Assembly: GCA_001799195.1 (NCBI GenBank)
Contig: MGSU01000316.1
Span: forward strand, 1-12,013
DNA: 12,013 nt
Direction of reading: 5' to 3'
DNA from: Deltaproteobacteria bacterium RIFOXYA12_FULL_61_11
Lineage (GTDB): Bacteria > Bdellovibrionota_F > JAHFAK01 > YA12-FULL-61-11
This document shows, in pieces, positions 1-12,013 of the stretch (its first letter is position 1; every line of letters starts with the position of its first letter). Position numbers and translations under genes: made by a program. Under the pieces are notes generated by a model that did not search any database, was not told the origin of the DNA, and was given only the letters and a program-made list of their open reading frames with translations.

Positions 1-460
1 AGGCCAGACCATCGACCTCGCGGAGCGTTCGCCCCGCGAGATACCGCTCGAGCAGCTCGACCAGGGTCCTCTCCCCCTCACCGATGACAACAAAATCAAC
101 CCCTTCTACGAGAGCAGCTTCCGGTGAGGTCGTGGCCAGGGGCCCTCCGCCGAGCACCAGAGCGGCACCGGCGTTCCGGGCGACAACCACCGCTTCGAAA
201 TAGCGATCCGCGTAGGGTTGGAGTCCGCGTACCCCCACCACGTCGGGGTGGCGCTTCTCCAGAATAGCAGCCAAGGACGCCCTGTCCCGCCCCTCCACCG
301 CGGTGTTCACCACATCGACCTCCACGGCCTGGCCAAAGGCTTCGCGCACGCAGGAGGCCAGGGTCAAGAGGCCGTACGGCAGCACGACCTGCTCGTCCTC
401 AGGTCGGAGAGGATTCAGGAAGGGGCCGATGGCGTCGATCAGGGTCACCACGAGGGGCAT
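1..460 (-). CDS. B12-binding-domain protein, probable radical SAM enzyme (partial, N-terminus only)
   Basis: The first 153 residues of a minus-strand gene; the 3' part lies beyond base 1. The start is ATG at 460-458, preceded by a fitting ribosome site (AGAGG about 4 bases upstream). The visible part matches the N-terminal cobalamin-binding (Rossmann-like) domain found in many radical SAM enzymes: an N-terminal PYGLLTLAS segment (residues 28-36), HPDVVGVRGL (71-80), the glycine-rich LVLGGGPLATTSPEAAL stretch (101-117) and VDFVVIGEGERTLVELL (121-137), the usual end of this domain. The radical SAM core and its CxxxCxxC motif would lie outside the window, so the enzyme class is inferred from the family pattern. 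I see no DxHxxG cobalamin-ligand motif, which is common for this subgroup. It is divergently transcribed from the adenylation-domain operon. Substrate unknown. Confidence 0.8.
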   Translation of the reverse strand, partial: MPLVVTLIDAIGPFLNPLRPEDEQVVLPYGLLTLASCVREAFGQAVEVDVVNTAVEGRDRASLAAILEKRHPDVVGVRGLQPYADRYFEAVVVARNAGAALVLGGGPLATTSPEAALVEGVDFVVIGEGERTLVELLERYLAGRTLREVDGLA

Positions 461-855: not shown

Positions 856-2367
856 ATGCGTTCGCTGACCCACCTGCTCGTCTCCGCCCTGACCAAGCGA
901 CCTGGGCGCACGGTCCTGCTCGACCCCCACGGCTCGATAACCGCCGGCGACCTGCTCTCCGCAGCCCGAGGCGTGACGACAGTCCTCCAAAAAAATGGGG
1001 TCGGCGAGGGCCATCGAGTCGGTCTCTTGCTCGAACGGGGACGCGATGCCGCGGCGGCCACCCTCGGCACCCTCCTCTGCGGGGCTTCCTATCTTCCCCT
1101 CGATACCCTCGGTCCTGCCGAACGGGTAGCCTCGGTTCTCGCCCACGCTTCGGTCCGCGCAGTGCTCACCGATCGCTCGCTGCCGGCCTTGGCAGACCCA
1201 GTAACCACCACCTGGAACGGCCACCAGTTCGTGCTCGATCGAGGCAACCTCGGCACGCTCCGACCCGCACAACACGGAGCGGAAGGCTTCCTGTCGGGTA
1301 CCGAGGAGGACGCTTACGTCCTGCATACCTCGGGTTCGACCGGCCTTCCCAAGGGAGTCCGGGTCGGGCACTCGGCGGCAACTTCCTTCGTCACGTGGGC
1401 CCAGGAGGCCTTCTCCCTCCGACCTTCCGACCGCGTGGCCTGGCTAGCTCCGCTGGGGTTCGACCTGTCGGTCCTCGAACTCCATGCCGCCCTGTGGGCC
1501 GGAGCCACGGTGCTCGCCGTGCCGCGAAAAGCAACCGTGTTCCCTCGCGACCTCCTCGCCTTCCTCGAACGCGAGAGTGTGAGCGTCCTCTACGTCGTAC
1601 CTACCCGCCTGCTCCGGCTCGCCGAGGTTCTCGAAGGTCCTGCTCCGCGCCTGACCTCCCTCCGCTTGGCGCTCTTCGCAGGCGAGGTCTGTCCGCCTCG
1701 CCCTCTGGCGAAGCTGATGGCTGCCTTGCCGTGGACAACCTTCGCAAACCTCTACGGGCCGACCGAAACCAATGTCTGCACCTGCCACGTTCTCTCCTCC
1801 CCACCGCTCGAGGTCCCCCCACTCGGCAGGCCCTGCCCCGGCCAGGTCGTGCGGGTGGTGGATGCCCACGGACGGAACGTGGAGCACGGAGAGGGCGAGC
1901 TGTGGGTCGGAGGACCGACGTTGATGTCCGGCTACCTCGGGGATCCGGAGGGGACCGAACGGTGTTTGGTCGAGGATCCCGTGGGAACGCCCCCCGGACA
2001 CCCGCGGGGGCGCTTGTACCGGACCGGCGATCGCGTCCGGCGTACCGAGAGCGGCGCCCTGCATTTCCTCGGCCGGGACGACTGTCAACTCAAGCGCGGC
2101 GGACTGCGCTGCGAGCCTGGAGAGATCGAAGCCGTGCTGCAACGGCATCCCCTCGTGGCCCGCGCGCTGGTCGAGTTATGTGCAGGCGAACTCCTGGCCC
2201 ACGTCGAACTGCTCCGGCCGCTGCCCGATCCCGGCCGAGAGCTTCGCCTCCACGCCAGAGAACACCTGCCCGCGGCCATGGTCCCCGAGAGAGTGCTCGT
2301 CCACGCGGCTCTCCCCCTTCTGCCCAACGGCAAGGTCGATCGCCTCGCCCTGCGAGGCCACTCATGA
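856..2367 (+). CDS. Stand-alone amino-acid adenylation (AMP-binding) domain protein
   Basis: A 503-aa member of the ANL (acyl/aminoacyl-adenylate-forming) superfamily, which uses ATP to activate a carboxylic acid and usually passes it to a carrier-protein thiol. The full core-motif set is visible: A3 HTSGSTGLPKGV (157-168), A4 FDLSVLELHAAL (202-213), A5 NLYGPTETN (298-306), A6 GELWVGGPTLMSGYL (347-361), A7 YRTGDRV (388-394), A8 GRDDCQLKRGGLRCEPGEIE (406-425) and A10 LPNGKVDR (489-496) with the catalytic Lys493. Asp203 matches Asp235 of PheA, so the substrate is probably an alpha-amino acid. Aligned by eye, the ten specificity positions read D-L-L-Y-L-A-L-V-C-K, which I cannot assign to a substrate. 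No carrier, condensation or thioesterase domain is fused or adjacent. The start is fixed by an in-frame TGA at 826-828, and AAGGA (838-842) is a modest ribosome site. The stop overlaps the next start (ATGA). Confidence 0.93.
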   Translation: MRSLTHLLVSALTKRPGRTVLLDPHGSITAGDLLSAARGVTTVLQKNGVGEGHRVGLLLERGRDAAAATLGTLLCGASYLPLDTLGPAERVASVLAHASVRAVLTDRSLPALADPVTTTWNGHQFVLDRGNLGTLRPAQHGAEGFLSGTEEDAYVLHTSGSTGLPKGVRVGHSAATSFVTWAQEAFSLRPSDRVAWLAPLGFDLSVLELHAALWAGATVLAVPRKATVFPRDLLAFLERESVSVLYVVPTRLLRLAEVLEGPAPRLTSLRLALFAGEVCPPRPLAKLMAALPWTTFANLYGPTETNVCTCHVLSSPPLEVPPLGRPCPGQVVRVVDAHGRNVEHGEGELWVGGPTLMSGYLGDPEGTERCLVEDPVGTPPGHPRGRLYRTGDRVRRTESGALHFLGRDDCQLKRGGLRCEPGEIEAVLQRHPLVARALVELCAGELLAHVELLRPLPDPGRELRLHAREHLPAAMVPERVLVHAALPLLPNGKVDRLALRGHS

Positions 2368-3863
2368 AGCTCCGCCCGACTCTCCGGCGTGGGAGGATCC
2401 TCGCCCTGCGCCTTCTCTTCCTCCTCGTCTGCCTCGAACTGACCCTCCGTCTGGGCGGTCTCAGCCGGGAGCTCGGCCAGACAGGCTTCGAGGCGAACCC
2501 CACGAACCAGGAGTTCCGTATTGTGGTGGTGGGTGAATCGATCTCGGCTGGTCTCGACGATTCCTGGCCCGCCCGACTCGAAGCCCTGCTGCGCAAGGCC
2601 GACCCCGACCGCGGCTTCCGGGTGATCAACGCGGCCCGGCCGGACACCAACAGTTCTTTCATCCTTGCCAGGTTGGAGGACCTCCTCGACGCTCACCGAC
2701 CAGCGCTGGTCATCGCCATGCTGGGGGCGGGCGACGATGGCTTACGCATCCGTTATCAAGAAACCTGGATCCAACGGATGGAAGCTCTAGCAGGAGAACT
2801 GCGGCTGGTCTCCTTCATCCGTCAACTCCTCGCGGGAGAGCTTTTTTCCTCCGGGCACCCTTCCCCCCTCGAACTGCTGGAAGGACCTCGACCGAATCCC
2901 GGCCCGTCCCACCGCGAGCGCCGGGGTTTCCTCGAACGCGAAGTGAGCAGGCTCGAGGCCCTGGTGCCCACGACACCGGAGGATTTTCACCTCCATCACC
3001 AACTCGGTTTCACCCTGCACCAACTCGCCCGTTACGACGAAGCCCTGGAGCACTACCGCAAGGCCCTGGCGGTGCGCCCGGGAGACCCCCGCGTGCTGAC
3101 CAGGATGGGATGGGCCCATCAGAGCAGGAACGAACTCGGCCTCGCCGAGCGCTGCTATCGCGAAGCCCTCGCGGCCGATCGAGACGATGACTCGGCCTGG
3201 GTCGGGCTGGGCATCGTCCTCTTCCTCCTCGAACGGAGCACCGAGGCCATCAGTGCCCTGGAACGAGCCGCCGCCCTCAATCCCAAGAATCCCGGAGCGC
3301 ACAACACCTTGGGCAGGATCTTCCTCGAACGAGGAGAGCTGCGCCGGGCCGGCGAGGCGCTGCGCCGCAATCTCGAACTGGACGGTGAGGCCGACTGGGC
3401 CCTCACCCAGCTTATCCGAACGTATCTCCAACTCGGAAAATCCCCGGTCGAACTGGAAACGAGGCTGCGAGCCCTGGATCCTGGGCTTCGCCTCGCGGCC
3501 GCCCTCACCGCCGACGAAATCACCCGGGCCAACTTCCACCAACTCCAGGAAAAGCTCCATCGGCGCGGCATACCCCTGGCTGTAGCGCAATACCCTTGTC
3601 TGCCGGTAGAGCTCCTCCGGCGCTACCTGTCGCCCAAGTATCCGGTGGCCCTGATCGACAACGAAACCAGCTTCCTCAGGGCCGTGACCGAGGACGGGTA
3701 TGCCGCCTACTTCACCGACCACGTCGAGCGCTACGTCGATCAGCGTTCGGCGTTCTACGGCAATTACGGCCACACCACGGCTGCGGGCAAGCTCCTGCTG
3801 GCCAACAACGCCCTCCCCATCGTCTTGCGCCTGGCCGCGAACGCGGCAGAGCCCGGGAGGTGA
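2364..3863 (+). CDS. Membrane-anchored SGNH/GDSL-like protein with inserted TPR repeats
   Basis: A 499-aa protein. Residues 11-30 are a hydrophobic N-terminal signal anchor, so the rest is probably periplasmic. Residues 51-63 hold an SGNH block I (VVVGESISAG, candidate nucleophile Ser59). GAGDD (121-125) sits where block III has GxND, and GNYGHTTAAGK (466-476) resembles block V with His470. Between blocks III and V lie about four TPR-like units (roughly 206-342), with typical hits such as ALEHYRKALAVRPGDP (227-242) and AISALERAAALNPKNP (295-310). Canonical SGNH residues look altered: the usual Asn of block III is Asp, the block II glycine is not evident, and the Asp three residues before the catalytic His is Asn467. 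Proteins of this class act as esterases or O-acyl transferases on polysaccharides, but activity here is uncertain. The start overlaps the adenylation gene's stop (ATGA). The frame is open far upstream, but only this start makes sense. Confidence 0.82.
   Translation: MKLRPTLRRGRILALRLLFLLVCLELTLRLGGLSRELGQTGFEANPTNQEFRIVVVGESISAGLDDSWPARLEALLRKADPDRGFRVINAARPDTNSSFILARLEDLLDAHRPALVIAMLGAGDDGLRIRYQETWIQRMEALAGELRLVSFIRQLLAGELFSSGHPSPLELLEGPRPNPGPSHRERRGFLEREVSRLEALVPTTPEDFHLHHQLGFTLHQLARYDEALEHYRKALAVRPGDPRVLTRMGWAHQSRNELGLAERCYREALAADRDDDSAWVGLGIVLFLLERSTEAISALERAAALNPKNPGAHNTLGRIFLERGELRRAGEALRRNLELDGEADWALTQLIRTYLQLGKSPVELETRLRALDPGLRLAAALTADEITRANFHQLQEKLHRRGIPLAVAQYPCLPVELLRRYLSPKYPVALIDNETSFLRAVTEDGYAAYFTDHVERYVDQRSAFYGNYGHTTAAGKLLLANNALPIVLRLAANAAEPGR
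3855..3860 (+). promoter_or_regulatory. Ribosome site deciding a GTG start
   Basis: GGGAGG sits five bases before GTG at 3866 and only touches the alternative in-frame GTG at 3860. This favours 3866 as the start of the first glycosyltransferase. The site overlaps the end of the SGNH gene (stop 3861-3863). Confidence 0.6.
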
Positions 3864-3865
3864 CG

Positions 3866-5422
3866 GTGAAGGCAACCGCTCTGGGATCGAAGCTCCTGCG
3901 GCAGCGCTCCCTCGTTCTCCTCGTCCTCAGCGGCCTGGTCCTCCTCACCAAGGCTCCGTACCTGCAGAAACCCTACTGGTGGAGCGAAAAGGCCTATCTG
4001 GATGGCGCCCTCGCCATTGTCGCCAACGGCCTGAATCCGTTCGTCGAATTCTGGTCCTACAAACCCCAGCTCCTGCTCTGGCTGGCCGCGCTCGGCTTCG
4101 AGCTGGGTGCCGGGACTCTCTGGTGGCCTCGGCTCCTGATCGCCCTGGCCGCCATCCTGGCCCTCTTCGCGACCTACGAACTCGGCCGGTTGCTCGCCGG
4201 TCCCGGCACGGGCTTCCTGGCCGCGCTGGTGGTCTTTGCCATGCCACCCTTCTTCGTCCACGCCGAGAGCTTCGTCGAGGCGGTCCCCTTCACCGCCACC
4301 GTGCTCTGGCTCCTCCTGGCCCTGACGTGGGGCAGCGACCGATGGACCGTGGTCTTCGGCTCCCTGCTCGTCCTGCAGAAGGAACCGGCCGTGCTCCTCG
4401 TCGCCGGACTCGCCGGCGTCGAACTCTGGTTCGACCTGCGTTCGGGGTTGCCACGGGGCCGGTGCCTGCGCCGGCAACTCCTCCTCCTCTCGCCGCTCGG
4501 CGTATTCGTCCTCTGGCTCGCGCTCAATCACCTCGTGTTCGGTTGGTTCCTGTGGCCCCACAACCTCAGTTTCCTCGCCCACCCGACCCTGACCGGTTGG
4601 GGGCTGTGGTGGATCGTCCGACGAGTTTTCGTCGACGACTACCGGTTCCTGCTCAGCGGGTTGGTGGTCCTCGGGCTGCTCCTCCCGACCGTGCGGACGG
4701 GGATCCTCTCCGGGAGACTGTCGGCGAGGGTCTTGGTCCTTCTCCTCCTCAGCGTGCTCTTCCATTGGCTGCAATGCGACGAGCGACCCTTCGGGGACAA
4801 AGACTACCAACCCCTGTTGCGGTACTACCTCTACCTCCTGCCCCTGCTCGCGGTGTATGCCCTCTTCGCTCTCCGAAGCGTCTTGCCTTCTCGCGGTCTC
4901 AGGAGCCTCGGCGTCGTCGCGTTGCTGGCCCTCGAGACGAGCGCCTGGTCTCCTACCGTGGTTCGCACCAACGGCGAGGACGATCTCAACCAACGCCACA
5001 TGGTCCAAGCTCAGAGAACCATGGCAGCCCTGGTGGAGCTGGAACATCCCGGGGCCCTGATCGTGGTCGACGGCTTCACCGCGTGGAACGAGGTGCTCAA
5101 TAACCCGGCCATGGGCTTCGTGACGGAACGTCAGCGAACCATCGTCTCCGGAGAAGTGCACCGCCGCTTGCGCGACGGGGACCTCGACGAGCTCTGCGCC
5201 GAACCCACGATCCTATTCTTCGTGACCTCGTGGGCGGTCCCTGCCCTAGAATCCGACCCCCGCCCCCTGGACCTCGTCGCGCAGGCAGAGAAAGAAGCCT
5301 CCCTTGGCAGGGCCACGCTCCTACACCGTCACCGCGAAGGCCCCGAACTGGTCGAACTGTACCACTGGCTGCCCCCTTGTACGCTGCCCTACGATTCTCG
5401 GGAGCCCGGCCATGCGCCCTGA
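3866..5422 (+). CDS. GT-C family membrane glycosyltransferase (GT39/ArnT-like)
   Basis: A 518-aa polytopic membrane protein rich in Leu, Val and Trp. A first transmembrane segment (about 15-28) is followed by a large loop, PYWWSEKAYLDGALAIVANG (36-55), the position where PMT/ArnT-type enzymes carry acidic catalytic or metal-binding residues (candidates Glu41 and Asp46). Next come NPFVEFWSYKPQLLLWLAALG and a series of hydrophobic helices, including an LVLQKEPAVLLVAG segment (168-181) of the kind seen in GT39 proteins. A soluble C-terminal tail of about 120 residues follows the last helix, typical for the family. Such enzymes transfer a sugar from a polyprenyl-phosphate donor on the outer face of the inner membrane to a lipid, glycan or protein. 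The GTG start at 3866 is chosen from the GGGAGG site. The 3' end overlaps the next gene by 11 bases. Donor and acceptor are unknown. Confidence 0.78.
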   Translation: MKATALGSKLLRQRSLVLLVLSGLVLLTKAPYLQKPYWWSEKAYLDGALAIVANGLNPFVEFWSYKPQLLLWLAALGFELGAGTLWWPRLLIALAAILALFATYELGRLLAGPGTGFLAALVVFAMPPFFVHAESFVEAVPFTATVLWLLLALTWGSDRWTVVFGSLLVLQKEPAVLLVAGLAGVELWFDLRSGLPRGRCLRRQLLLLSPLGVFVLWLALNHLVFGWFLWPHNLSFLAHPTLTGWGLWWIVRRVFVDDYRFLLSGLVVLGLLLPTVRTGILSGRLSARVLVLLLLSVLFHWLQCDERPFGDKDYQPLLRYYLYLLPLLAVYALFALRSVLPSRGLRSLGVVALLALETSAWSPTVVRTNGEDDLNQRHMVQAQRTMAALVELEHPGALIVVDGFTAWNEVLNNPAMGFVTERQRTIVSGEVHRRLRDGDLDELCAEPTILFFVTSWAVPALESDPRPLDLVAQAEKEASLGRATLLHRHREGPELVELYHWLPPCTLPYDSREPGHAP

Positions 5423-7079
5423 CACGAACCCTTCGCGTTACCTCGTGCCGCTGATCTTCCTCGGGCTGCTCCTGCTCGGCCTGACCGTGTTCCGGGACTA
5501 CGGGGTTGGCTATGACGAGGGCAACAACCGCTTCTACGGCCGGTTGATGCTCGACTACGTGCTCGGGGTCGAACGACCCGAGTTCTCGGATCCCGGGCAC
5601 TACTGGCATCCGGTCCGAGGCACCTTCGCCCGCACCCACGGCCCCTTGCTGGAGATGCTCCTCGGCCTGCCCGAACTGCTCCTCGGTCTCGAGGATCCGC
5701 GTGACACCCTCTTGTTGCGGCACTTCCTGCTCTACCTGCTCTTCTGGGCCTCCGCGGTCGTGCTGTATGTCCTCTGCCGGTCGACCTTCGGCTCGTGGAC
5801 CTGGGGTTTGTTCGGCGTGGCCATGCTGGTGGCGAGCCCGAGGCTCTTCGCCAAGGCCTTCACCGACAGCATGGACCTCGGCTTCCTGTTCACCGTCAAC
5901 CTGGCCCTCCTGACCCTTCTCCGGTTCGTCGATCGCCCGACTCTGAAAAGCACGCTGCTCCACGCCCTCGCCACTGCCGTGGCCATCGACGTCCGCATCG
6001 CGGGCTGCTTCCTCCCCGTGCTGAGCATGGGCCTCCTGCTCGTCCTCGGACGGAGGACCCCAAACTCGAAGACGAGCACACTTCTCGGACCGAGCCTCGG
6101 ATACGTGCTCGCGACCTGGGTCTTGGCCGTGGTCCTCAACCCGAGTTGGTGGCAGCATCCCCTGACCGGGCCCCTGCTCGCCCTCGAAAGCGCGGCGGCC
6201 GACCCGTGGCCGAACTGGGAGTGGTATCTCGGCGCACAGGTCAACGGCCGGGAGGTTCCGTGGCATTTTACCGCCGTCTGGATCGGCGTGACGACCCCTC
6301 CCCTCTGGCTCCTTCTAGCCTTGCTCGGCCTGGGTTCCAATCTCCTCGCCCTGTTCCGGTCCCCTCTGAGGTGGCTCGGGGAGCGCCCCGCCTTGTCGAT
6401 CGCCTGCCTGGTGCTCACCGGCAACCTCGCCGCCATGGCCCTCCCCGGCGTCACCTTGTTCAACGGGTGGCGGCACCTCTTCTATCTGTATCCCTCATTG
6501 CTGCTCCTGGCTACGGCCGGGGGGCTCGTTCTAATCAAGAACGTACGGAGATATTCGGCGCTCCACCGGTCTCTCGTACGCCGAGCAGTGATCCTTCCCT
6601 GGCTGCTGCTGCTCCTCCAAGGCGGCTCGGTCGTCTATGACCTCGTGCGCTACCACCCGTTGCAGAACCTCTATTTCAACCGGCTGACCGGCGGACTGGC
6701 CGGAGCCCTCGGACGCTTCGAGATAGGCTATTGGGCGACCGAATACCGGGAAGCGCTCGAATACCTTCTTGCGACCTACCCGGGCCGCATCAGGTACCGC
6801 CAATGGGATTGCCAACCCGCACCGGCCGCCGGCGCTTCCTACAACGAACGTATCCTGCGAGCTACCGACCGGGAACGTCTCGAATATGCAGAGTGGAAGC
6901 CCGGAGAACCCGAGGTCTTCTGGTTGAAGAACGCCTTCCACCACCCCGATCCGCCCTGCTCCTGCGCCTCGGCCTGGCCCCACCTACCCCCCGTGCCTCC
7001 CGAGCTCCACCTCGAAGAGCTCTGGGCCCGCCGAATCGACGGCATACCCGTGATCGCGGTCTACAGGGAACGGCGCTGA
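5412..7079 (+). CDS. Second GT-C family membrane glycosyltransferase (GT39-like)
   Basis: A 555-aa polytopic membrane protein. After a first helix (about 11-28) comes DYGVGYDEGNNRFYGRL (29-45), with the Asp35-Glu36 pair expected in the first periplasmic loop of GT-C enzymes, then THGPLLEMLLGLPELL (75-90). SPRLFAKAFTDSMDLGFLF (142-160) and AIDVRIAG (191-198) are patterns I associate with GT39-like proteins. About ten hydrophobic segments follow, then a soluble C-terminal part from about residue 470, probably periplasmic. The start is ATG 5412 with GGGAG (5400-5404) seven bases upstream. It overlaps the previous glycosyltransferase by 11 bases and ends in TGATG, shared with the methyltransferase start. 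The two glycosyltransferases share a fold but are clearly divergent in sequence, so they probably add different sugars or use different acceptors. Confidence 0.8.
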   Translation: MRPDTNPSRYLVPLIFLGLLLLGLTVFRDYGVGYDEGNNRFYGRLMLDYVLGVERPEFSDPGHYWHPVRGTFARTHGPLLEMLLGLPELLLGLEDPRDTLLLRHFLLYLLFWASAVVLYVLCRSTFGSWTWGLFGVAMLVASPRLFAKAFTDSMDLGFLFTVNLALLTLLRFVDRPTLKSTLLHALATAVAIDVRIAGCFLPVLSMGLLLVLGRRTPNSKTSTLLGPSLGYVLATWVLAVVLNPSWWQHPLTGPLLALESAAADPWPNWEWYLGAQVNGREVPWHFTAVWIGVTTPPLWLLLALLGLGSNLLALFRSPLRWLGERPALSIACLVLTGNLAAMALPGVTLFNGWRHLFYLYPSLLLLATAGGLVLIKNVRRYSALHRSLVRRAVILPWLLLLLQGGSVVYDLVRYHPLQNLYFNRLTGGLAGALGRFEIGYWATEYREALEYLLATYPGRIRYRQWDCQPAPAAGASYNERILRATDRERLEYAEWKPGEPEVFWLKNAFHHPDPPCSCASAWPHLPPVPPELHLEELWARRIDGIPVIAVYRERR

Positions 7080-7906
7080 TGGAGTCGCAAGGACGGCGTG
7101 TGGACATCGAGTCCGACTTCGGAGCATGCTCTCTGCACCACAAGAGAATTAGACGCAACTGGCTCAAGGGCATACTCTACGCCATGGGAGCGCGGCGGCC
7201 CTGTCCGATCTGCGGAGGCTTTGCCCTGCCCATCAAAGCCAGTTGGATGCATAGTTATCTTCGCTGTTGGCGCTGCAATCTGATCTATGTTGCAGAACTC
7301 CCCAGTCAAAACAACTTACATGCTGCCTATCAACAGGTCTATCAGGACTCGTACCAAGCGCGGCACAAAGAGCATTGGGAGTCCTGGATGGAACACAAAC
7401 AACGAACGCTCGATGCGCTAGGAATACCGAGCTACCAAGAGCAACTCGGAGAACCTCGCCGGGCTCTTGATCTGGGCTGTGGAGAAGGCCGCTTACTGCA
7501 CGTGCTTGCTCAACGCGGCTGGCACGCTGAAGGACTTGAAATCAATGCAAAATTAGCCCACGAGGCCCAGGGGTTGGGATATACTGTACACCTTGGTCCA
7601 TTCGAGCAAGCCTCTTTCTCAGAGCAGTTTGCCTTGATAACCATGAATCACCTCATCGAGCACCTCCGCTCACCGCTCGAAGGCCTCGAGAAGGTGCGGA
7701 CGTGGTTGGTCCCTCAGGGGCGGTTGGTCTTGGAAACCCCCATCCTGCCGGATTATACGAACACCGATCACCTTTACTGTTTCAGTGCCGCCGCGATCGA
7801 TCGTGCACTAAGAAAATGCGGCTTTGTGCCTTTGATGTGGTTTCAGTATATTGATGCTCACTATCAGCACCACAACCTAGCCTGCTGTGCCAAGCGCACA
7901 GCGTGA
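7079..7906 (+). CDS. Class I SAM-dependent methyltransferase with N-terminal CxxC...CxxC motif
   Basis: A 275-aa protein. Residues 42-66 carry CPIC and CWRC, a probable zinc-ribbon-like module. Residues 129-137 (ALDLGCGEG) are the glycine-rich SAM-binding motif I, and EGLEIN (151-156) supplies the acidic residue after strand 2. NHLIEHL (190-196) and QGRLVLETPI (213-222) follow as in Methyltransf_23/UbiG-like proteins. Family members with a leading cysteine module often act in sugar or secondary-metabolite methylation, but the substrate here is not identifiable. The start at 7079 is coupled to the preceding stop (TGATG) with AGGGA upstream; an internal ATG at 7184 (residue 36), just before the cysteine motif, is an alternative. 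Base composition is unusual: 7261-7860 is about 53% GC by hand count, far below its neighbours, with many A/T-ending codons, suggesting a separate origin. Confidence 0.86.
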   Translation: MESQGRRVDIESDFGACSLHHKRIRRNWLKGILYAMGARRPCPICGGFALPIKASWMHSYLRCWRCNLIYVAELPSQNNLHAAYQQVYQDSYQARHKEHWESWMEHKQRTLDALGIPSYQEQLGEPRRALDLGCGEGRLLHVLAQRGWHAEGLEINAKLAHEAQGLGYTVHLGPFEQASFSEQFALITMNHLIEHLRSPLEGLEKVRTWLVPQGRLVLETPILPDYTNTDHLYCFSAAAIDRALRKCGFVPLMWFQYIDAHYQHHNLACCAKRTA

Positions 7907-7966: not shown

Positions 7967-9451
7967 TCACCCTTGATTTGGGGGATCCGCGTGGCGCGCT
8001 TGCCGATGGGTCCGAGGCGCCGGCTCGGTTCGCTCGCAGCGGCGTTCGTCCGATGCACGGGCCTCGGCGATAGCACTACCGGGCAAGCCAAAATCCTCGG
8101 CCAGCGCACGGTTGATCAGGTCGCGCAATCGCTGCAGGGCAATGCCGTGAGTCCTCCCGGCCTTGCGCATCACGGAGGTTGTCAATTGGGACAAGGCCTC
8201 GAAGCGCGACGGGGCTCGGAAGAGGAGGTCGAGGGTCGAGGGGAACCTGCCGCTGTTGACCACCAAGTCGTTGATTCTCGCCACGTGCCGAAGGTGGCTC
8301 ACCTCCTCGAAGGACATGCGATCCGAACGGAGGAGCTCGTAGGGAGGGAGGGGCGAGAACACCAGACCGCGGCGTTCCGCGATCGCGCACAGGGGGGTGC
8401 CTCTCAGACGTTTGAGGATGCCGAGCTGGAGCTCCTGCGGTCCCAGGGCCGAGAGGCGGTCATACCCCGCGGCGAAACTCTGCACGTCCTCTCCCGGCAG
8501 GCCTACCAGTAAGTCGGCATGGACGTGGACAAAGGTGTGCTCGCGCAGCCAGGTCAAACTTTCCTCCAGGGCCGGTAGATCTTGTCGGCGGTTGATGGCG
8601 GCCAAGGCCTCGGGATTGAAGCTCTGCACCCCCACCTCACCTTGCATCCGGCCCGGGGGCATCGCGGCAAGTAGGTCGCGGAGGCCTGGAGTGAGCAACT
8701 CGGCGATCAGCTCGACGTGGAGGAAGAGGTCGGGTTCGGGCCGTGCCAGGAAGAAGGAGAGCAGGTGTTCCGCGGCCGAGGGGTCCAGGTTGAAGGTCCT
8801 GTCCACGAACTTGAAGTGCCGGGCGCCACGTTCGATCAGCTCCTCGAGGGCGCGGAGCAAGGGGCCTCGGGGGAATTCCCGCACGCCCCGTTCGAGGGAG
8901 GACAGGCAGAAGGCGCAGGCATACGCGCACCCCCTCGAGGCCTCGACATAGGTGAAGCGTTCGCGCAGGTCTTCCTCGGTGTATTCGCCATAGGGGAAAC
9001 GGAGCGAGGCGAGCGGCAGCCGTTGGCCCCGGAGGATCCGTGCTTCCGGTCGCCGACCGGCTAGTATTGCTCCGGCCAACTCCGCGAAGAGCGACTCTCC
9101 CTCTCCGCAGACGACATAATCGGCCTGTCGGCAGATCGGCTGCTGCTCGGACTCGTAGCTGACCTCGGGTCCGCCGAGCACGATGCATAGCTCGGGACGC
9201 ACCGTCTTGAGCACCGCGACCAGCTTGGTCGCGAGCTCGACGTTCCAGATCGCAACGCTGAGGCCGAGGATCTTCGGCTCATGGGCCAGCACCACTTCGG
9301 CCAAGGCCAGCGGACCATGTTCGAGGGTCCGTTCCAACAGCAAGGCTCGCGGCCGCAACTCGCCGAGGTTGGCCAGCACACAACGCAGGCCAAGGCACGG
9401 ATGCTGATAGCGGGCGCACAGCCCGAGCAGGAGGATGTCCGTAGGTGCCAT
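7967..9451 (-). CDS. B12-binding-domain radical SAM protein, DUF4080 type
   Basis: A 494-aa protein read on the minus strand. Residues 5-135 form a cobalamin-binding domain (DILLLGLCARYQHPCLGLR; ILGLSVAIWNVELATKLV; VLGGPEVSYE at 91-100; DYVVCGEGE at 111-119). The radical SAM core follows, with YVEASRGCAYACAFCLSSL (168-186): Cys175, Cys179 and Cys182 would bind the 4Fe-4S cluster. Residues 211-222 (RHFKFVDRTFNL) and the FCLSSL/GVREFP pattern are what I recall from DUF4080-containing radical SAM proteins. QGEVGVQSFNPEAL (270-283) and HADLLVGLPGED (311-322) are normal core elements. The C-terminal tail from about residue 465 is Arg/Pro-rich and probably disordered. ATG 9451 is chosen because the domain begins there; it has no clear Shine-Dalgarno. 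The frame stays open to 10621 only as an antisense artefact of hutU. Reaction unknown; methyl or other radical chemistry is expected. It is convergent with the operon. Confidence 0.88.
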   Translation of the reverse strand: MAPTDILLLGLCARYQHPCLGLRCVLANLGELRPRALLLERTLEHGPLALAEVVLAHEPKILGLSVAIWNVELATKLVAVLKTVRPELCIVLGGPEVSYESEQQPICRQADYVVCGEGESLFAELAGAILAGRRPEARILRGQRLPLASLRFPYGEYTEEDLRERFTYVEASRGCAYACAFCLSSLERGVREFPRGPLLRALEELIERGARHFKFVDRTFNLDPSAAEHLLSFFLARPEPDLFLHVELIAELLTPGLRDLLAAMPPGRMQGEVGVQSFNPEALAAINRRQDLPALEESLTWLREHTFVHVHADLLVGLPGEDVQSFAAGYDRLSALGPQELQLGILKRLRGTPLCAIAERRGLVFSPLPPYELLRSDRMSFEEVSHLRHVARINDLVVNSGRFPSTLDLLFRAPSRFEALSQLTTSVMRKAGRTHGIALQRLRDLINRALAEDFGLPGSAIAEARASDERRCERTEPAPRTHRQARHADPPNQG

Positions 9452-9661: not shown

Positions 9662-11659
9662 ATGTCTACCGTCCTCGAGGGTCCACTTCCCCCACCCCCG
9701 GTCTTCCGCAACGACCTCCGCCGCGCCCCCCGCCGGCAAGCGACCTTGACCAGGGAGCAGGTCGAAATCGCCCTCGGCAATGCCCTGCGCTATATCCCGA
9801 CAGAGCACCACGCAGCGCTGGCTCCCGAGTTCCTCGAGGAGCTGCGCCAACGCGGGCGGATCTACGGCTATCGGTACCGCCCGGCCGGGGCGATCACGGC
9901 CCACCCCATCGAACACTACCGCGGCCGTTGCCTGGAGGGAAAAGCGCTCCAGCTCATGATCGACAATAACCTGGACTTCGCCGTGGCCCTCTACCCCTAT
10001 GAGCTGGTGACCTACGGCGAGAGCGGCCAGGTCTGCCAGAACTGGATGCAGTACCTCTTGCTCGGACACTATCTCGAGCGTCTCGACCCAGCCCACACCC
10101 TGGTCGTGGCCTCGGGTCACCCTCTCGGCCTGTTCCCGTCCCGGCCGGAGGCTCCCCGGGTCATCTCGACCAACGGTTTGCTCGTCGGCCTCTATGACAA
10201 CCAGACCGACTTCAACCTCGCGGCGGCCATGGGTGGGACCAATTACGGCCAGATGACCGCCGGCGGCTGGATGTACATCGGCCCGCAAGGCATCGTTCAC
10301 GGCACCTACCTGACCTTGCTCAACGCCGGGAGGATCTATCTCGGCCTGGGGGAGGACACCGATCTTCGCGGCCGCCTGTTCGTCTCCTCCGGGCTGGGCG
10401 GCATGAGCGGAGCCCAGGCCAAGGCCGTGGAAATCGCCGGAGGCGTGGGAATCGTCGCCGAGGTCGATGCCTCGCGCATCACCACGCGCCACGAGCAGGG
10501 CTGGGTCGGGCTGCGCTCCGACAACCTCGACGAGGTCACGGCCGCGGCTCGGCAAGCCCTGGCGAAACACCGCCCGCTCTCGATCGCTTACCACGGCAAC
10601 GTGGTCGATCTGCTCGAACACCTCGAAGGGAGCACGTTGCAGGTCGACCTGCTCTCAGACCAGACCTCCTGTCACGTGGTCTACGACGGCGGGTACACGC
10701 CGCAAGGGGTGAGTTTCGAGGAAGGCCGCAGGCTGATCGCCGAAGAACCAGCGCGCTTCCGAGACCTGGTCGACCGCTCGCTGCGGAGGCACTTCGAGGT
10801 GATCAAGGCCCTCGTGGCGCGGGGAACGCGCTTCTTCGACTACGGCAACAGCTTCCTCAAGGCGGTCTTCGACGCCGGGTGCAAAGAAGTCGCGAGGAAC
10901 GGGCGCGATGAGAAGAGCGGTTTCATCTTCCCGTCCTACGTCGAGGACCTCATGGGTCCGCTCTGTTTCGATCGCGGTTTCGGCCCCTTCCGCTGGGTCT
11001 GTCTCTCCGGCAAGGACGAGGACCTGCGAAAGACCGATGCCGCGGCCATGGCCTGTATCGACCCCTCGCGCAGTCCGCTCGATCGCGACAACCACCGCTG
11101 GATCGCCGAGGCCGAGCGCAACCGGCTGGTGGTCGGCTCCCGGGCCAGGATCCTGTATGCCGACGAACGTGGCCGCGTGACCATCGCCACGTGTTTCAAT
11201 GAGATGGTCCGGTCAGGGGAGATCGGCCCGGTCATGATCGGCCGGGACCACCACGACGTCGGCGGCACGGATTCGCCCTTCCGCGAGACGGCCAACATCC
11301 GCGACGGTTCCAACGTCTGCGCCGATATGTCCATCCATTGCTTCGCCGGCAACGCCGCTCGGGGTATGACCCTGGTGGTGCAGAGCAACGGCGGCGGGGT
11401 CGGTATCGGTCGGGCCAAGAACAGCGGCTTCGGTTTGGTCCTGGACGGTTCGCCCCGGGTCGACGGGGTCATCGCCTCGGCCCTCTCCTGGGACGTCATG
11501 GGTGGCATCGCACGGCGGGCCTGGGCCGGGAATCCGGCCGCCGTGGAGACGGCCAACGAATGGAACCAGCGCCCCGGGCAGAGTGGCCACCTGACCCTCC
11601 CCCAGCTCGCCGACAAGGAATTGGTGCGGGCCACGGTCGCAAAACACTGGCCCGACTGA
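9662..11659 (+). CDS. hutU: Urocanate hydratase (urocanase)
   Basis: A 665-aa NAD+-dependent urocanase (EC 4.2.1.49), which converts urocanate to 4-imidazolone-5-propanoate, the second step of histidine degradation, in the cytoplasm. Recognised segments are GKALQLMIDNNLD (93-105), YELVTYGESGQVCQNWMQY (113-131), MTAGGWMYIGPQGIVHGTY (198-216) and the NAD-binding SSGLGGMSGAQAKAVEIAG (242-260). Further segments are LLSDQTSCHVVYDGGYTPQG (330-349), SYVEDLMGPLCFDRGFGPFR (425-444), IGRDHHDVGGTDSPFRET (526-543) and SNGGGVGIGRAKNSGFG (575-591). The length matches the long class of about 660-680 aa rather than the roughly 555-aa Pseudomonas/Bacillus type. Expression should follow the promoter at 9582-9610 and the GGAGG site. 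No other hut gene (hutH, hutI, hutG) is seen in the window; the gene downstream is a transporter-like protein starting three bases after the stop. Confidence 0.97.
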   Translation: MSTVLEGPLPPPPVFRNDLRRAPRRQATLTREQVEIALGNALRYIPTEHHAALAPEFLEELRQRGRIYGYRYRPAGAITAHPIEHYRGRCLEGKALQLMIDNNLDFAVALYPYELVTYGESGQVCQNWMQYLLLGHYLERLDPAHTLVVASGHPLGLFPSRPEAPRVISTNGLLVGLYDNQTDFNLAAAMGGTNYGQMTAGGWMYIGPQGIVHGTYLTLLNAGRIYLGLGEDTDLRGRLFVSSGLGGMSGAQAKAVEIAGGVGIVAEVDASRITTRHEQGWVGLRSDNLDEVTAAARQALAKHRPLSIAYHGNVVDLLEHLEGSTLQVDLLSDQTSCHVVYDGGYTPQGVSFEEGRRLIAEEPARFRDLVDRSLRRHFEVIKALVARGTRFFDYGNSFLKAVFDAGCKEVARNGRDEKSGFIFPSYVEDLMGPLCFDRGFGPFRWVCLSGKDEDLRKTDAAAMACIDPSRSPLDRDNHRWIAEAERNRLVVGSRARILYADERGRVTIATCFNEMVRSGEIGPVMIGRDHHDVGGTDSPFRETANIRDGSNVCADMSIHCFAGNAARGMTLVVQSNGGGVGIGRAKNSGFGLVLDGSPRVDGVIASALSWDVMGGIARRAWAGNPAAVETANEWNQRPGQSGHLTLPQLADKELVRATVAKHWPD

Positions 11660-11662
11660 CGC

Positions 11663-12013
11663 ATGCTACAGCGGCTCAAGGCGACTTTCTATCCCATCGA
11701 ACGGCAGGACCTTGCCAAGGCCCTGCCTCTGTGGGGCTCTCTGTTCCTGCTGACCTTCTGTTACATCGGGACCAAGTGCGTGAAGTACGCGGTCTTCCTC
11801 GACCAGGCCTCTGGAGGTCCCGGGGCAGCGTATGTCCCCCATGCCAAGCTGCTCACCATGCTCTTGGCCTTCCTGTCCGTCGCCATCTACGGCAAGCTCT
11901 GCAACCACTTCCTCCGGGAACGCCTGGCCTTCGTGCTGCTCGTCTCCTTCTCCGTCATGCTGCTCGGCTACGACCTCCTCCGACCTTCCTTCCCCCTTGC
12001 AACCGCCTGGTTC
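11663..12013 (+). CDS. NTT/TLC-type ATP/ADP (nucleotide) transporter-like protein (partial, N-terminus)
   Basis: The first 117 residues; the gene runs off the right edge. ATG 11663 lies three bases after the hutU stop, with no obvious ribosome site, so translational coupling is likely. The protein has a short charged start with FYPIERQDLAKALPLW (9-24), then hydrophobic helices at about 24-38, 66-82 and 90-106. The order (basic/acidic leader before a LPLW helix, TFCYIGTKCVKYAVFL at 33-48, GAAYVPHAKLL at 55-65, AIYGKLCNHFLRERLAFVLL at 78-97) resembles the N-terminus of nucleotide translocases of Rickettsia, Chlamydia and plastids, and their homologues in free-living bacteria. The first-helix Arg-Asp typical of ATP/ADP exchangers is not clearly present. 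The family call is by pattern only; another multi-spanning transporter is possible, perhaps one importing histidine or urocanate. Confidence 0.55.
   Translation, partial: MLQRLKATFYPIERQDLAKALPLWGSLFLLTFCYIGTKCVKYAVFLDQASGGPGAAYVPHAKLLTMLLAFLSVAIYGKLCNHFLRERLAFVLLVSFSVMLLGYDLLRPSFPLATAWF

Follow-up and report, generated by a model that had tools for sequence, protein, structure and literature searches.

The window, i.e. the whole stretch of DNA analysed, comprises bases 1-12013 of contig C316 (27,198 bases) from the genome of an isolated bacterial lineage; this genome of 4.64 Mb is assembled in 342 contigs and 87% complete. Five genes on the plus strand span positions 856-7906, and all five ORFs are open at these coordinates. 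The first gene (P0001, 856..2367) encodes a stand-alone adenylation domain predicted to be an L-proline--[carrier] ligase, and the second (P0002, 2364..3863) an SGNH-hydrolase-like protein that is anchored in the membrane and whose SGNH fold is interrupted by TPR repeats. They are followed by genes for a GT-C-like membrane protein with about nine predicted transmembrane helices (P0003, 3866..5422), a putative GT-C glycosyltransferase with the fold of OST, ArnT and PMT (P0004, 5412..7079) and a class I SAM methyltransferase with an N-terminal Cys4 (zinc-ribbon-like) segment (P0005, 7079..7906). P0001 and P0002 overlap by 4 bases (ATGA at 2364-2367). The stop codon of P0002 (3861-3863) is separated by a 2-base gap from the GTG of P0003 at 3866, which is preceded by a strong GGGAGGTGA Shine-Dalgarno sequence. 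P0003 and P0004 overlap by 11 bases (5412-5422), and P0004 and P0005 meet in TGATG at 7077-7081, with the methyltransferase ATG at 7079-7081; a methyltransferase start at 7078 was rejected, being out of frame. Re-checking the coordinates and ORFs thus bore out the five-gene operon with four touching or overlapping junctions described in the sequence-only reading, and such junctions favour co-expression. The first gene begins 855 bases from the left contig end, and the sole feature in between is a fragment of a B12-radical-SAM gene on the opposite strand.

P0001 is 503 aa long and contains only the AMP-binding (3.4e-68) and AMP-binding_C domains, with no fused NRPS domains. Mapping by position gives DLLYLALVCK for its ten pocket residues. 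The stand-alone L-proline ligases PltF, RedM and CloN4 share the consensus L(L/F)YLALVC, which differs from that of modular proline domains (PMC3874040). The code of P0001 fits D-L(L/F)YLALVC-K and matches the stand-alone L-proline domains at 10/10 residues. Because the ten-residue code is that of the stand-alone ligases, the predicted substrate is proline; P0001 very probably activates L-proline, and would load it onto a carrier. Among solved stand-alone proteins PltF (6o6e) is the best match, and across the specificity region the aligned residues of the two agree. No other strong match to an amino-acid-type adenylation domain was obtained in the genome (the next match is at 1e-14). In the tree it sits on a long branch, a position with weak support (81/48). 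The sequence-only reading had likened the locus to DltA/DltD; a D-alanine substrate and identity with DltA were rejected, given the proline code and scores of 185 bits against a cut-off of 476 and 179 against 560 with the DltA models. The remaining strong ligase-type matches in the genome, an acyl-CoA-ligase-like protein on contig C200 and a fatty-acyl-AMP-ligase-like protein on C174, were set aside as separate pathways; that on C174 has its own carrier.

The closest stand-alone relatives of P0001, eight from 386 genomes and one from Streptomyces clavuligerus, differ from it by at most one change in the code, with the pattern DL[LFH]Y[LF]ALVCK. All nine adjoin a dehydrogenase gene. These dehydrogenases are 46-52% alike, and the one that was scanned scored 497 bits with PigA and 489 bits with RedW. 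A carrier of about 84 aa is also encoded beside most of the nine relatives, and the surrounding gene sets are predicted to be pyrrole-2-carboxyl cassettes. In genome G202 (L167 7147-11310, plus strand), a dehydrogenase, a prolyl-type adenylation domain and a carrier are followed by a GNAT/FemAB-like transferase; this set adjoins glycosyltransferase-like and asparagine-synthase-like genes.

P0002 matches TPR repeats (2e-22) and GDSL/SGNH (1.4e-6), and consists of an N-terminal transmembrane helix (residues 12-30), a TesA-type SGNH half (1.2e-8), at least three TPR repeats and a C-terminal segment that contains a GH motif. The serine is present in GES and the histidine in NYGH. However, the position of the block III Asn is occupied by Asp after an insertion, and the DxxH motif of block V reads NYGH, with Asn in place of Asp, so P0002 does not display the full Ser-His-Asp triad with the block III Asn. 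The active site appears to be either changed or lost, and the protein may be inactive, as the block III Asn is absent and NYGH replaces DxxH. Measured against DltD-like SGNH proteins with an N-in, C-out anchor, P0002 has one N-terminal transmembrane helix and an SGNH-like N-terminal half, but the catalytic Asn and Asp are not conserved. When P0002 was folded alone from its single sequence, only the TPR part was modelled with confidence, and the relatives recovered match only this part. No MBOAT partner for P0002 is encoded in the window.

GT-C enzymes act at the membrane on lipid-linked sugars. Sequence matches of P0003 and P0004 to PMT_2-like GT-C proteins had values of 0.014 and 2.7e-4, respectively. 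The structural model of P0004 (pLDDT 86.6) matches OST, ArnT and PMT structures at Z scores of 22-25 over 340-470 residues, with top values of 24.6 for OST and 23.5 for ArnT. Its family is broad, and the acidic first-loop motif Asp35-Glu36 is invariant in 37 sequences. From sequence and model, P0004 is a predicted GT-C glycosyltransferase. P0003 is more remote, and its activity is doubtful because Ser stands at the first-loop position where 6/6 relatives have Asp. P0005 matches Methyltransf_23 (1.6e-18). Its gene has a G+C content of 54.6% (0.60 at third positions) against 65-68% (0.77-0.84) in its four partners, so it is probably a later, recent arrival. Downstream on the contig, a further PMT_2-type GT-C gene adjoins a PF14907 nucleotidyltransferase gene (L042 7247-8902 and 8906-10306, both minus strand).

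Five radical SAM/B12-binding genes were observed on the 27-kb contig, in the window at 2-460 (-) and 7967-9442 (-) and in L042 at 10150-11544 (-), 12334-13410 (+) and 13361-15145 (-); they include KedN5-, ApyD/BchE- and PhpK-like members and one MoaA/SPASM-like member. Beyond the operon, the plus strand encodes a urocanate hydratase of 665 aa (9662-11659), which extends beyond the HutU model by about 80 N-terminal and 30 C-terminal residues, and a protein of the ATP/ADP (NTP/NDP) translocase family (TLC; 11663-12013, continuing in L042 to 967), encoded here in a 4.6-Mb genome. The TLC family is best known in intracellular bacteria and plastids. A dispersed G+C-rich repeat with strong hairpin potential lies at 541-720 of the window, at L151 8171-8460 on contig C30 and in L238, L240, L248 and L253; the copy on C30 has inverted GTAACCCTTCA on both sides and seems MITE-like. 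The Rfam search gave no match.

The sequence-only reading had proposed to look for the order adenylation domain, SGNH-TPR protein, two glycosyltransferases and methyltransferase across genomes. This order, and the five-gene set as such, are conserved in no genome searched, and in none of these genomes were even two of the operon genes observed together. Conserved synteny with P0003 or P0004 was found in none of 78-386 genomes, and no homologue of P0001 or P0003 lies up to 10 kb on either side of 80 GTDB homologues of P0004. In the one other genome of the same class that was compared, P0001, P0002, P0003 and P0004 had no match at the limits applied. The lack of a conserved order points to a lineage-specific operon rather than a conserved system; absence of the order from all relatives was among the findings that the sequence-only reading had named as refuting it. 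As just one other genome of the class was compared, a lineage-specific unit is compatible with this result.

Neither of the usual neighbours of stand-alone proline ligases is found beside P0001. The window encodes no prolyl-carrier dehydrogenase, and a search of the 87%-complete genome revealed none of the PigA/RedW type. Six acyl-CoA dehydrogenases were found there; in the tree all six branch outside the cassette clade (98/98), and the RedW model gives them 78-239 bits, compared with 489 bits for the cassette enzyme. Within the limits of this completeness, the simplest acyl group would therefore be proline itself. The genome-wide PF00550 search recovered no carrier on C316, the contig of P0001; it recovered carrier domains in large synthases on contigs C16 and C103 and small carriers on C248, C30, C44 and C174. 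As possible partners, the carriers on C248, an FAS-type AcpP, and on C44, which adjoins PfaD-, AT- and asparagine-synthase-like genes, were set aside. Among the small carriers, only that on C30 has no evident pathway of its own, and only that one adjoins an MBOAT gene. The statement that carrier and MBOAT are missing thus holds for the window, whose part list had been given correctly, but not for the genome, where the two adjoin each other.

The C30 locus consists of three nearly touching genes in a row on one strand. The carrier (83 aa, L151 12663-12914) lies between a gene for a B12-radical-SAM protein (L151 11044-12660), whose best match is TIGR04190, and an MBOAT gene (L151 12924-14423), whose best match is DltB. 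The carrier best matches DltC and the ornithine-lipid carrier, and is also similar to prolyl-cassette carriers. Four MBOATs are encoded in the genome (on C30, C144, C33 and C75), and only that on C30 has a carrier. The DltB score does not single it out, because all four score like DltB. In the C30 MBOAT His347 is invariant, and the C-terminus FIYIQF fits FXYXXF, the motif that serves as acyl-Tyr shuttle in DltX and in SGNH-partnered MBOAT proteins (PMC12148441). The other three MBOATs each adjoin an SGNH-like gene on the same strand, recognised only by eye and with no Pfam or NCBIfam match; the C30 MBOAT alone among the four lacks such a gene in its operon. Instead of P0002, its partner could be the product of a small SGNH-like ORF that lies on the opposite strand at L151 14947-15822, some 0.5 kb past the start of the MBOAT gene.

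Over 534 aa, the C30 radical SAM protein shares 37% identity with a protein of genome G029 that is encoded directly upstream of a dehydrogenase, adenylation domain and carrier set. TIGR04190 was nevertheless rejected as a marker of prolyl loci, since only G029 supports it and most genomes examined have no prolyl genes near their TIGR04190 proteins. Three candidates were scored per genome in this survey, so the C30 protein was missed. In genome G099 (L170 5699-10812, plus strand), genes for an MBOAT-like protein, an SGNH protein, a carrier, a prolyl-type adenylation domain and a prolyl-carrier dehydrogenase stand in a row. The 442-aa protein is MBOAT-like by a weak profile match alone. This row is possibly a one-locus version of the system proposed below, with pyrrole chemistry.

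With carrier and MBOAT side by side on C30, the Dlt-like logic may be whole, though divided over two loci. The two loci were paired by elimination: the C30 MBOAT has no SGNH gene in its operon and the window SGNH protein has no MBOAT, and by their predicted roles the orphan parts complement each other. We tentatively propose, at somewhat below an even chance, a Dlt-like relay, divided between two loci, by which an envelope glycan receives L-proline or a derivative instead of D-alanine. L-proline would be adenylated by P0001, which is the strongly predicted step, and P0001 would load the orphan 83-aa carrier of C30. The carrier-bound group might then, speculatively, be modified by the neighbouring B12-radical-SAM enzyme. 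The C30 MBOAT would carry the acyl group across the membrane to the Tyr of its C-terminal FIYIQF, a motif that is present, and membrane-anchored P0002 would take up the acyl group and hand it to the glycan. The glycan or glycolipid itself would be built on the outer side by GT-C enzymes that depend on polyprenyl-phosphate sugars, for example P0004, with the methyltransferase P0005 as an accessory. It seems plausible but rather unlikely that L-proline or a (methyl)pyrrole-2-carboxyl group is ester-linked to an extracytoplasmic glycan by a carrier-dependent MBOAT-SGNH system with split loci. The similarity of the C30 radical SAM protein to that of G029 and the gene row of G099 speak for the relay. 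Against the relay, the two loci lie on different contigs with no physical tie. The altered active site of P0002, the opposite-strand ORF near the C30 MBOAT, the recognition by eye of the other SGNH-like neighbours, the uncertain tree position of P0001, the DltB-like scores of all four MBOATs, the lack of prolyl genes near most TIGR04190 proteins and the unconserved order also count against it. The repeat common to the window and C30 was rejected as a link, as it is dispersed, with about 7 copies in 0.49 Mb.

Stand-alone proline ligases are known as entry enzymes to antibiotics and pigments. P0001 might instead supply a secreted or cytosolic prolyl or pyrrole small molecule, to which the GT-C proteins, the methyltransferase and the B12-radical-SAM genes of the contig would also belong; we consider this unlikely. 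The characterised stand-alone proline domains do work for natural products (PMC3874040), several radical SAM genes occur on the 27-kb contig, which accounts for 4 of the 10 radical SAM places encountered in a sample of about 0.49 Mb, and the large synthases with carrier domains on C16 and C103 would fit such a pathway. However, the window and the remaining contig show no gene for condensation, PKS or NRPS functions, GT-C enzymes use lipid-linked sugars at the membrane, and the prolyl-carrier dehydrogenase was not found.

The genes may also be co-transcribed but functionally loose envelope genes, with the SGNH protein degenerate or a scaffold and the adenylation domain serving an unrelated pathway. 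The order conserved nowhere among the genomes searched, the foreign composition of the P0005 gene, the altered catalytic residues of P0002 and the missing first-loop Asp of P0003 speak for it. The four junctions that favour co-expression and the mutual complementarity of the orphan parts speak against it, and we regard it as improbable. Still less probable is that a dehydrogenase in the unrecovered 13% of the genome yields a pyrrole-2-carboxyl group for transfer, with the C30 radical SAM enzyme perhaps adding a C-methyl group: a dehydrogenase beside 9/9 relatives and the coupling of a C30-type enzyme to one in G029 are consistent with it, but the six acyl-CoA dehydrogenases lie outside the cassette clade and far below the RedW score.

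At the least, as predicted from its code, P0001 is a stand-alone proline ligase whose gene surroundings are unusual. Its place in an operon of glycan enzymes, together with the carrier and the MBOAT with shuttle motif encoded at another locus, suggests that the entry chemistry of antibiotics and pigments also serves cell surfaces. If true, the relay would mirror the D-alanylation of teichoic acids with a cyclic amino acid. It predicts a modification of the envelope that we did not find reported; a search of the literature on proline or pyrrole attached to bacterial polysaccharides gave nothing relevant. It would also involve an MBOAT that depends on a carrier and has a shuttle motif of its own; PMC12148441 does not describe this combination.

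Several known systems can be compared with the two loci. Like PltF, PigI, RedM, CloN4 and CcbC, P0001 is a single adenylation domain of about 500 aa with the same ten-residue code, but it shares its operon with SGNH and GT-C genes and has no adjacent carrier or dehydrogenase, both of which accompany the ligase in the pyrrole-2-carboxyl cassettes (RedM/RedW/RedO, PltF/PltE/PltL). P0004 shares the GT-C fold with ArnT, OST/PglB and PMT at an identity of only 9-16%. In Gram-positive bacteria, D-alanine is attached to teichoic acids by the Dlt system. Four of the roles of DltA, B, C, D and X seem to be present here, the adenylation domain and anchored SGNH protein in the window and the MBOAT and carrier at C30; the differences are the proline code, the two loci with no DltB or DltC gene in the window operon, and a shuttle motif on the MBOAT C-terminus instead of DltX. 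The FIYIQF end and the conserved His of the C30 MBOAT are shared with the MBOAT-SGNH relays (PatA/PatB, alginate and cellulose acetylation). Those relays use acyl-CoA donors and no carrier (PMC12148441), whereas the C30 MBOAT gene is followed by a carrier gene. In the AlmEFG system of Vibrio, an adenylation domain, a carrier and an acyltransferase glycylate lipid A (PMC3783018; PMC11253843). The shared logic is the placing of an amino acid onto a surface glycolipid, but AlmEFG uses glycine and an LPLAT-type transferase, not MBOAT-SGNH.
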